Shown here: positions 53,101 to 59,100 of the stretch, piece after piece
Numbering within the stretch: the first letter of the stretch is position 1
Layout: each line of letters starts with the position of its first letter
Assembly: GCA_963556255.1 (NCBI GenBank)
Contig: OY744611.1
Coordinates: 39,822,944-39,886,943, forward strand
Origin: Allolobophora icterica
Lineage: Eukaryota > Annelida > Clitellata > Crassiclitellata > Lumbricidae
Direction of reading: 5' to 3'
Length of the DNA stretch: 64,000 bases
Translations under genes and position numbers: made by a program
Notes under the pieces: model-generated
Seen by the model: the letters and a program-made list of their open reading frames with translations, nothing else
Told to the model about the DNA's origin: nothing
Databases searched by the model: none

Positions 53101-56100
53101 TACTAACATTGCAGTGGCACTGTGCGACCTACAGGTAGATGCGGTTGCATGTGATTGTTTTCTAGATACGGGAGTACCGAACCTCGTCATTATATTAAAT
53201 TCAACAGTGAAGTATCCTTCGGAATAATGTGAACATTTACAGACAATTAGACAAATGGAGGGATGGATGGAGGGATGAACGTATCTTTTATTTATGCATA
53301 TGTGTATTTATGTATGTACTATGTAGGTAGGTAGGCATAAATGTGTGTATGTAAGTGTGTGTGTAATGTGTATATATTAGTATGTATGTATATAGGTATA
53401 TGTATGCACGGTGTTTATATGTACTTATGTATGCATGCATGTTTTTGTAGGACTCACCTACTATTTCAAAATAAACGACATACCGATCTTTATGAAAGGT
53501 TCGAACTGGATACCAATGGATTCTTTCCAGGATAGGATTACGTATGACAAGTAAGAACTGGCTTCTCTAATCAGACGTCACGTGGAAGTAAGCGTCCAAA
53601 ATGAGCGATTGCCTTCCGATGACTGTTCTTCATTGAAACTCAGCATCGCACGGTTCTATTACAGTCTGACTTAAGCCAAATTTTCAGACAGATATGTATC
53701 AAGCAACATGACTGCAGATGCAAATGTGAATGACGCTAATGACCGCAAGTTCTCAGTGTCAGAGGAATTACGTAAGGGGAACAGATTATTCATCAGCGAT
53801 TATTGAAGTGAAATCTCCAATGGGACACACTGGTTCATTCATTCATTCATTCATTCAATCAATCAAACAATCAATCATTTATTCAATCATTCAATCATTC
53901 ATTTATTCAATTAGTCATTCATTCATTCAGTCAATCAATCATTTATTCATTCATTCATTTTATTCAATCATTCAATCAATCAATCATTCAATTAGTCAAT
54001 TAGTCAATCAATAATTCATTAATTAAATCAATCATTCATTCATTCATTCGGACATACAAACAGGACTGGCCACCCGCCCTCATACACAGAGGGTAAGACA
54101 TTTTTCGTAGCCTTACCGATTAGCTAAGGAACTGCTTTGCTTCTTCCTCTCCTTCTTCTCTTTCTCTCTTTCTTCTTCTTTCTTTACTTCTTTTATCTTC
54201 ATAGGTTACGCAATTTGCTGATGTCGGCCGTTGATGTCAATATGAACTCGATTCGTATCTGGGGCGGCGGAGTCTACGAATCGGACGATTTCTACGACAT
54301 CGCAGATGAGTTGGGGATCCTCATCTGGCAGGATATGATGTTCGCCTGTTCGATGTATCCGGTTCATGAGACATTCCTTGCGTCCGTCGAAGACGAGATT
54401 CGCTATCAGGTGACTACATGCTACATATCTTAGGCACCACATCTGTTGAAAGACGTGGTTTACGTAACTGAGTGAACGAGACATAAACATTAATTGAGCA
54501 CTATGTTGTTTGTAAGGAAAATGTAGGTCTATAACAATAAGAAACAATAGGAGAATTGCTAACAAGTTTATATGTATGTAGTGTGTACTTGCATCATATC
54601 TTTACATGTTGCGCTCACTTTTTAGTGATAAGGTCTGATTAAACAAAGTGACGCATAGTAAATTATAATTTACGCCTAGATAGTAATTATTATAGGGGTC
54701 TATGAAAATTTATAAAATGCAAGTGTTGTGTTTATATACCGCGAGTATATATTCACAAACGATCAGCATGAGTAAATAATTACAATGAATGATTATTAAT
54801 TTATTTAGCGCTAATTTAAAAGACGAAGTAACGATCGATGGTGCTACGAAACGTTTAACAGGCGTGTTCAAGTCTTGACTGTCTCAGTGAAGGCTTGAAG
54901 CAGCTAATCGCGTTGCAATGCAAGAGCTCGGCCCACTACTAACCGTTTCCCGAAATAGATTTATATCAGGAAATGTTTCCGTAGGTGTGGTCATGAACGG
55001 TGAATGGATGAACTTTTGGTTGAAGCGCAAAAACTACAAGAGCGATACATTAAAAATACGATTTAAACCCCGAAGAATAATAAGCAGCGCATTGTCCGAA
55101 TGTAGTAGAAATGGGTTTCAACTTCAATTCGTTCAAGAGACTAAGTTAGTACAACCGTATGTTAAGAAATCATTCAGTGTCCGCATATCCGATATTTTGG
55201 GATTCGTTGTTGCCGATCGAGGACCCAACGCAGAAGTTGAGTCCGTTATAAGATAGATGCAGAGGCGTCTACTCCATAGAAACCTTGGAGCAAATGCTCC
55301 ATCAAAAAAATAGGGCGGGGGAGATCTGTCAGTGTATGTGCCATCATTATTGGGGGAAGGAAGAGAAATGGGGAAGAGGAGGGAGGGAAGGGAAAGTTGC
55401 TCCAAAGACCTCGGGGGGGGGGGGTAGACGCCTCTGGATAGATGCTGTAAAGTGTAAACAATAGAACTCCTAACCGTTGTTTTACGCTGTTTGGCAACTG
55501 TGTGATGATGATCAGGTGAGACGTCTCGGTCGACATCCGTCGATTATGGCGTGGACGGGAAATAATGAAAACGAAGGGAATATTGCCGTTGACTGGTAGG
55601 AAGCGGACCACATTTCAGTCTATCAGAACCCGGCACGAAACCTGCTTAACCCACCAGCTTATAGATTCACACTCAGACTGATGTAATTCAACGGAAGGCA
55701 TTGGTGTGGGAAGATTCCTTATAATTATACGTGAATTTCCTAATAAATTACCCTAAAGACGCCATATCAAGTTTCTTGGTAAATTCACATTAAAGTGGGA
55801 CATTGAGTATGGTAGTAAAAACGTGACTGGTTAGACAAAAGCTGTAAAATTAAAGGAAATAAGAAGGTTTTTGCGGGGCAATTTATGTCGGTGAGAGTCC
55901 TGAATGTAAGCCTAGTTCTTTGAAAATTGGTTGTAAACAAAGGCTCGAATCTTCAATTTCCACTTAGACATTGCCTTTAGTCGACCTTGGAAAATAACTA
56001 AGATATCTCCGGTGTTTACCAGTTTCATGAAATACGAAACCAGAGGGGATAATTCGCCTTGTTACCTTGTAACGAAACCTGAGCTGATCGTTTATAAGAT

Positions 56101-59100
56101 TGCTACCACCGTGCTTGCGCTTCAGCCAAAAGCTCTTTCATTAGTTGGACATGATATTTGAAGAACGCCTCTTGCTGTTACCCATGCTTCTTCGGGTTCA
56201 AATTTCCAATCACGTTACAACTTTCTGCTTCGCGTAGGCTTTGCATAGATAAGTTATTTTAAAACGATTGAATATTATTGAACATTATAAACCAAATCGT
56301 AAAACGTGTCATCAGGTGAAACGACTCGGTCACCATCCTTCACTCATCGCCTGGACTGCAAACAATGAAAACGAAGGTGCCCTGGTCGACAATTGGTAAG
56401 CCACTAGTAACACATCCTACCTATAAGACCTATAACCCATCCCACCATAACACCTATGATTCAATAACCCATCCCACCCATAACACCTATGATCCAATAA
56501 CCCATCCTACCAATGACACCTATGATCCAATAACCCATCCTACCCATAACACCTATGATCCAATAGCCTATCCTACCCATAGCACCCATGATGCAATAAG
56601 CCATCCTATCCATAGCACCTATGATCCAATAACTCATCTTATCCATAACACTTATGATCCAATAACCCATCCTACCATAGCACCTATGATCCAATAACCC
56701 ATCCTACCATAACACCTATGATCAAATAACCCATCCTACCCATAGCTCCTTTGATCCTGGCACCATTTGTCCTCTGCTCAAATGAAGACATCATTTGTGT
56801 ATAGTAGGCTCCTATCTCCATAGATACTAAGCGTCGATTTTAAATGCGATATCATTTCTCTTGACAACCCCTCTGACAAGGCATAACGCTCGTGAATAAT
56901 CTGTTGCCCTGCGCTTAGCTTTCGAGTAGCACTTTAGAAAATCTAAGTTTATGATTACGGCATATAAAATGCAGTTGCATTACATCGCGCAAAGGCAGAT
57001 ATTCTTCAGTGCAAGAGTTGTTGACCTGTGTATTGGTTGGCTAATTCCACTGACAGCTGTCCAGGTTGAATAATTGCATTGGTTCTAACACAGCTTACAC
57101 GTCTTCTGAGCCACGTAAAAGCATTGTTATAATTATTATGTTGTCATATTAAAATCATTGGCCATTCGGCAAATACATTGGAACGCGCTGAACTCAGTGA
57201 ACTGGTCGCCCACCGACTGAAGAAAGCGAAGTCGCTAAAATATCGTAATATCCGTAGTTGCTTCTCGGAGTTTGGCTAAAGAACTTAATCTGCTTTTCTA
57301 CTTTACATTCATGGGCGTCCGGAGGGAGGGGGTAAGGGCGCAGTTGCCTCCTCAATTTTGCAAATATTTTACAAAAATGAAATCTTTTGATTATTATGAT
57401 TATTACAACAGTCCCAACACAATTTTCAATGCGAAAAAACACTTCATTATTTAAGTAAAGTCCTTGACCATTATTTATTTTTAAAGTTTTTTCTATGCAC
57501 TTTTTTAATGCAAAAATGTCATCCCCCCCAAATTTGGCCCCCTTAAAAAAATCCCACTCCCAAAAATTCCTGCGGACGCCCATGTTTATATTGACATTTC
57601 ATTACGATGAATAAAGATATTCCCAAGTCATCCAGTGCGCTTATTAATGCTTAGTTTAAGACTTAATTTCATAGCATAATGTGCAAGAATTTTTATGCTG
57701 TTATTGTACTTGTACTTGATCATTTACATAGCGCCGCTCAAAGAGCAAACATATAAGAGCTACCCTATATATGATGTTAAATGTTACTAAGAAATAGACT
57801 ATTTCATCAGATAGCAAAACAATGCACAGGATACTAGAAGAGTTAACAGTGGAGAGCCCACGCACACACGTAGAACCCAACCAACGGTTTCTCGTCGACA
57901 GTTAACAGATGGCATGCATGTTCAGAGTTGGTTGTTGGTTGCAGTGACATCATTGGTGCAGAGTAGTTATTTTCATCCGATAGAGATAGTTCAAACGCGT
58001 TTAACGTTTCATAATTCAAAGCAGTGTGAAAATTGTACAAAAAATTGTAGAAAAAAGACGATTTCGATACATGTGGAGTTGAATATTTTATCCGTGTTTT
58101 GCAAACTAAGAAAATTCAAAAATGCAATAGAAAGCTTAAACTCTTTAAAGTGTTGACATTACCAAATTTATTAGTATACAATTCACATGGTCACAAATCT
58201 CAAAATAAACCAGAGCATTACTTTATTAGTAATCCGCAAAGTGAATTGTGAAAGAAAATGCTAAAATAATATTATATGCATAATATAATCACACTAGCAC
58301 AACTGGGGGTTGGAAACTACCCCTGGGAGTGCAATGAGGTTTAACTGGGGGTCCTAAGAAAGACTACGGGTTTGAACTCCCATACCTCTGACAATTCTCA
58401 CCTTGATTCAAAGGCGTTTAACGTTTTGAAATTCAAAGGCATTTAACGTTTCTCATAACCTATACAGAAATCTCTAAGCTGTAGACTGATTGCCCTCGCA
58501 GGTACGGTACCTCTGGTCCGAATTACTCGCGATACAAATCCGACTACGTTCAGCTCTACATCGATGTCGTCATGGCAACGATCCTGAACGAAGATTCCAG
58601 TCGTCCGTTCCTTCCGTCGAGTCCATCAAACGGAAAAGTAACTGAACAGAACGGTTGGATCTCGGAGTCACCGCGTCCAGGAGTTCCGGAATACGGAGAC
58701 GGTAATCCTAAATTGAATTATTTGAAAGCCACAAGTCGTTTGTTATAAGGTTAAATATTGTGTAGAATTACAGATCTTCATTCACTGTATCATTTTAATT
58801 CACCCCATACTGGCCGTATTTAATTTATCCCATACGACCCTATTTAATTCACCCAATCTGGCCCTATTTAATTCACCCCATATGGTCCTATTTAATTCAC
58901 CCACTAAACCCTGTTTAATTCACCCAATATTGCCCTATTTAATTCGCCCATATGGCCTTATTTAATTCACCCCATCTGGCCCTATTTAATTCACTCCACA
59001 CGGCCCTATTTAATTCACCCATATGGCCCTATTTGACTGTTGGGTTCTTCTGATGCTTTACTCTTCTAAGAACTCATCTTCAGGGCAACTTTGGGATCTT

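Follow-up and report, generated by a model that had tools for sequence, protein, structure and literature searches.

The window analysed here is a 64,000-nt stretch of the 1.118 Gb Allolobophora icterica assembly (C11:39822944–39886943), and all feature coordinates are positions within it unless another contig is named. A GH2 beta-mannosidase gene lies on its plus strand (43720–62549; the end of exon 15 is approximate), and is supported by AG/GT borders, fitting phases, and Pfam matches. The gene model is intact and has 15 exons per transcript, or 16 if the two versions of exon 10, 10A and 10B, are both counted. We describe this exon pair and argue that it is probably a pair of functional, mutually exclusive exons.

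The closest relative among the matches listed, P0001, is 85% identical to the model over the 511 residues searched. P0001 has 894 residues and comes from a contig of just 2.9 kb, which is therefore probably a cDNA. Its alignment with the model has no gaps at the junctions of exons 1–15; the gapped positions comprise 6 residues within exon 1 and 2 within exon 7. Judging by P0001, the 3′ end of the gene, corresponding to ~145 residues, falls outside the window, and this C-terminal part was not found in the 70 kb downstream, which are partly N. When the model with 10A is searched against Pfam, PF22666 and PF02837 score above the cut-off, PF00703 scores just under it, and PF02836 is unreported. 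The catalytic region matches the solved chain 6ddt_A with an E-value of 4e-113. The acid/base Glu (NNE motif) is residue 548 and the nucleophile Glu (SEYGY) is residue 647 in both models, the counterparts of the catalytic residues E457 and E554 of human beta-mannosidase (PMC3333182).

Exons 10A (55516–55595) and 10B (56316–56395) are both on the plus strand, and each is 80 nt long and encodes 27 residues. They start 800 nt apart and are separated by a 720-nt intron. Both have an intact AG at the 5′ border and an intact GT at the 3′ border, and both are entered in phase 0 and left in phase 2, which is compatible with the phase 0 end of exon 9 (54205–54409, plus strand; CAG|gtgact) and with the phase 2 entry of exon 11 (58502–58701, plus strand), where G|TAC completes a Trp codon. 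The initial annotation had described two such exons fitting exons 9 and 11, with 24 differing bases, 17 conserved residues, and at least seven silently changed codons. The arrangement is reconfirmed throughout, and a recount gives 24 of 80 bases different (30% divergence), 17 of 27 residues identical, and 7 codons with a silent change only. In searches of the 64 kb, each exon retrieves the other, with E-values of 4e-9 by tblastn and 2e-10 by blastn, and a third copy is absent at E < 1. A chance match or a haplotype artefact is ruled out by this blastn value and by the 30% divergence. The likeness is confined to the exons, as aligning the 300-base flanks of the two exons gives no improvement over shuffled sequence.

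The reading frame admits only one of the two exons at a time. Both 9-10A-11 and 9-10B-11 are open. When both copies are included (9-10A-10B-11), the sequence TGG TGA places a stop directly after the junction-spanning Trp codon (residue 558), and when both are skipped (9-11), the frame is shifted after residue 530 and reaches a stop at 578, 48 codons past exon 9. Therefore, a full-length product holds a single exon-10 copy, which bears out the earlier claim that double inclusion breaks the frame. Homologous neighbours of equal length and phase within one gene, whose double inclusion or double skipping each ruins the frame, are expected of mutually exclusive tandem-duplicated exons, as are purifying selection on both copies and the occurrence of each in mRNA singly.

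The immediate stop upon double inclusion would also suit a regulatory role for 10A in place of a second enzyme, in which double inclusion, or a message ending after 10A, lowers or truncates the product. An AATAAA at 55742, ~147 nt past 10A, and an in-frame TAG at the start of the intron point the same way. But 10B likewise runs into an intronic stop, because TG|GTAG and TG|GTAA themselves give stops, and the interval from exon 9 to exon 11 contains 8 instances of AATAAA or ATTAAA. Moreover, a poison or terminal exon has no need of family-like residues, phase, and donor, all of which 10A has. We consider a regulatory 10A quite unlikely.

The sequences of the two copies look constrained. Between 10A and 10B, the nonsynonymous rate (dN) is 0.22 and the synonymous rate (dS) is 1.55, giving a dN/dS of 0.14, with dS near saturation; the initial annotation had named a ratio near 1, combined with absence of the second copy from close relatives, as a refutation. 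The differences at codon positions 1, 2, and 3 number 4, 6, and 14 (p 0.023). To compare the copies with the family, we used a 28-residue segment taken from the 147 of 160 proteins that cover it (120 listed of 2168 matches, and 27 of a further 40), of which 112 segments are unique. At 9 of the 10 positions where A and B differ, the residue of A is present in the family, the support for its Met at position 11 being one segment of the 112. Profile scores are 73.3 for A and 81.5 for B, against a family minimum of 69.4, a 5% point of 74.0, and a median of 88.5. In drift simulations starting from B, the number of runs per 100,000 that stay free of stops and reach the score of A is 0 at 24 or 20 changes, 2 at 16, 37 at 12, and 960 at 8; the simulation takes the present sequence of B as the start of A, and is weaker if fewer of the changes fell on the side of A. 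Purifying selection on both copies, as proposed in the initial annotation, is thus supported by dN/dS, the simulated drift, the third-position excess, and the family-like residues of A.

Upstream of the gene lies a dead exon-3 copy (40970–41090, plus strand), which serves as a control for decay. It is ~70% identical to exon 3, contains in-frame stops and a 1-nt insertion, and has lost its 3′ end. Its differences by codon position are 15, 5, and 14, with the third position not in excess over the first. The relic is broken at a divergence similar to that of 10A and 10B, which are intact. It is probably the remnant of a larger tandem copy, and this hints at a larger copy formerly adjacent to the gene. 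The exon pair could then stem from two tandem gene copies that fused, with the part through 10A coming from one and the part from 10B onward from the other, instead of by duplication of a single exon. We regard this as highly improbable: no further remnant of a second copy is found at E 0.01 in 110 kb of flank, which is partly N, and a fusion bears on the origin of the pair, not on its function.

A protein search of the assembly itself gives 26 matches. Sixteen fall on C11 and belong to this gene or to the exon-3 relic; the other 10 fall on C6 and belong to a single paralogue (C6:53513359–53525930). The paralogue has one exon 10, also exactly 80 nt long and with the same phases, so the exon borders look older than the duplication. 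Derivation of 10A from a second gene is ruled out, the only paralogue found in the assembly having one exon 10. The C6 gene also contains a further short stretch like part of exon 3, running into exon 4, which is possibly due to chance. In a tree of 25 rows, built from 23 selected relatives together with this gene and the C6 paralogue, the paralogue groups with Liolophura sinensis, a chiton (support 87/89), and this gene forms one clade with P0001, P0002, P0093, and P0003, the last from the annelid Paralvinella palmiformis (support 100/100).

The residues of the paralogue bear on the age of the duplication. At the 10 differing positions, its residue is kept by A at 5 and by B at 3. Gly15 and Ala24 are common to A and the paralogue, and all four clade relatives have the states of B at these positions, a hint that the duplication predates the split of these relatives. 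P0144, a short fifth sequence outside the tree, has the Gly of A at 15 and the Val of B at 24, so position 15 is less telling. In a likelihood analysis of the 28 residues, placing A at the stem of the lineage or beside the C6 paralogue beats placing it as sister to B by ~3.3 log units; this leans towards an old duplication, but the difference is not significant (approximately unbiased test, 0.31 for sister to B).

The splice sites were scored with a matrix. The acceptors of 10A and 10B score -2.0 and -3.3, both among the weakest four of 15, and the donors are ordinary. The AG-free stretches upstream of the two exons are 49 nt (10A) and 60 nt (10B), inside the 15–74 nt of three other acceptors examined, and a distant branch point is rejected accordingly. 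An inverted repeat has its left arm upstream of 10A (55003–55030, plus strand) and its right arm between 10A and 10B (56115–56142, plus strand). The arms are complementary at 24 of 28 positions, with a folding energy of -35.3 kcal/mol that is reached by none of 200 shuffles. As RNA, this stem would loop out 10A, and is possibly a lead to how the exons are chosen. Around 10B no stem exceeds those of shuffled sequence, and no copy of the arms occurs elsewhere in 174 kb save a 14-nt match. A tRNA scan and an Rfam scan gave no match. A miniature inverted-repeat transposable element (MITE)-like element with inverted ends occupies 55246–55450, 65 nt upstream of 10A; it belongs to a dispersed repeat, and 44 of 46 matches in a search with a longer query fall on this element.

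Several observations weigh against mutually exclusive use of 10A and 10B. The acceptors of exons 5 and 7 are equally weak, and stems that equal or surpass the one around 10A (28.3) flank two of the other 13 internal exons (28.8 and 84.1), a third coming close (26.9). The 720-nt intron is long enough for splicing of both copies, which rules out steric hindrance as the enforcer of exclusivity, and no U12-like donor is seen, which rules out U12/U2 incompatibility. With exon 10 of the C6 paralogue as outgroup, relative-rate counts assign 10 derived bases to A and 11 to B and leave 3 unresolved. With the same outgroup, however, the dead exon-3 copy comes out just as balanced (12:12, 17 unresolved). 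The C6 outgroup is therefore too distant and the relative-rate test says nothing; we dropped it as evidence for selection. All four clade relatives carry the B-type segment; their proteins were clustered at 90% identity, so an A isoform could be hidden. The Asn of A at position 22, four residues past the acid/base Glu, occurs in none of the 112 unique segments, 110 of which have Ala, in none of the 120 listed of 2168 matches and none of the 27 segment-covering sequences among 40 matches. A search for an A-form protein by words from the A segment found none; it missed a known B-type relative too, and says little.

The B-type segments of the relatives and the family-wide absence of this Asn are also what would be seen if 10A were a dying duplicate, hardly or no longer spliced, with its frame and sites kept by luck and the B enzyme alone being made. 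The locus does carry relics, as the dead exon-3 copy demonstrates. Against this, dN/dS, the drift simulation, and the third-position excess argue for constraint, and 10A has kept its AG, its GT, and its length, whereas the similarly diverged exon-3 relic is broken, a contrast that is nevertheless compatible with a very recent death. We consider a dying 10A unlikely. The pair is best read as two functional exons spliced in a mutually exclusive manner, and we hold this to be probable.

Under mutually exclusive splicing, exon 10 of the beta-mannosidase gene would have been duplicated in tandem and both copies retained. Each mRNA would contain either 9-10A-11 or 9-10B-11, the choice possibly being aided by the intronic stem, and mRNAs with both or neither exon, being out of frame, would be removed by decay. 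The two predicted enzymes would have the same acid/base and nucleophile Glu. Their residues right after the acid/base motif differ (GNIAVDW in A, GALVDNW in B), most strikingly by the replacement of Ala by Asn, and the two forms would thus have different active-site surroundings and may differ in function. A more specific proposal can be made tentatively, as a possibility that we do not favour: the exon pair could be old and belong to a distinct beta-mannosidase lineage, made up of this species, its relatives, and Paralvinella palmiformis, and it could give two enzymes that prefer different linkages or different sugars adjoining the mannose that is cleaved off, with the choice made by tissue or diet and the Asn past the acid/base motif acting as the switch.

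Other features of the gene and the window were noted by eye or in repeat comparisons. Exon 1 (43720–44113) encodes a hydrophobic stretch of ~28 residues and then a charged linker of ~90 residues before the GH2 domain. The start of P0002 resembles exon 1, P0003 has a comparable stretch within a longer predicted start, and the predicted start of P0001 is further downstream. Given the hydrophobic stretch and the similar starts of P0002 and P0003, the lineage of this gene may be membrane-anchored instead of lysosomal. An inverted repeat (82 nt, 91%) lies in the introns flanking exon 13 (60503–61024), and a further piece resembles 50691–50727. Two long open reading frames, 4886–9802 (minus strand) and 34288–36312 (plus strand), look like retroelement polyproteins; the former spans 1638 codons and includes parts resembling an integrase and a reverse transcriptase.

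The lysosomal beta-mannosidase MANBA (6ddt_A), the best solved relative, shares the acid/base and nucleophile Glu, but has VALSVNW after NENE, unlike both A and B. Outside this family, OGDH reportedly has exons 4a/4b (PMC7969005). An analysis of 236 human tandem duplicated exon substitutions includes KHK, in which homologous exons are swapped beside the ligand site and the catalytic residue, an Arg, is present in both forms, as is the acid/base Glu here; MANBA and mannosidase are absent from its main text (PMC9741552). Exons controlled by RNA structure, through docking sites or bidirectional pairing, resemble our case in having complementary intronic elements that would loop out one exon, but here a single stem is found, and comparable stems occur at other exons of the gene (PMC6071210).

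The initial annotation had taken regulation of this kind to be undescribed for the family. This stands for beta-mannosidases among the open-access papers listed, where we found nothing relevant on beta-mannosidases or other glycoside hydrolases with mutually exclusive or duplicated exons, but the type of regulation is known from coq-2. One listed paper, PMC8807443, names the enzyme nowhere but in its references. Exons 6a and 6e of coq-2 in helminths, annelids, and molluscs are equal in length, are not a multiple of three, and remodel COQ-2 (PMC7434440). Both systems have two internal exons of identical length, indivisible by three (coq-2 of C. elegans, 134 nt; beta-mannosidase, 80 nt). The pair is mutually exclusive in coq-2 and predicted to be so here, and it affects residues near the active site; one form is the general family type and the other is restricted, and a conserved Ala is replaced (by Ser in coq-2). 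The systems differ in that COQ-2 is a polyprenyl transferase whose exons were followed by RNA-seq for expression and by C. elegans exon deletions for function (PMC7434440). If both exons are used, one gene would give two enzyme forms, and this would be, judging by the open-access papers listed, the first splicing swap of a segment bearing the acid/base residue of a glycoside hydrolase. Such a natural enzyme pair, with ten differing positions around one active site, would allow a direct test of the specificity residues beside the catalytic Glu in GH2 beta-mannosidases, and beta-mannosidase would stand beside COQ-2 among the enzymes that exon swapping has reshaped in the same part of the animal tree.

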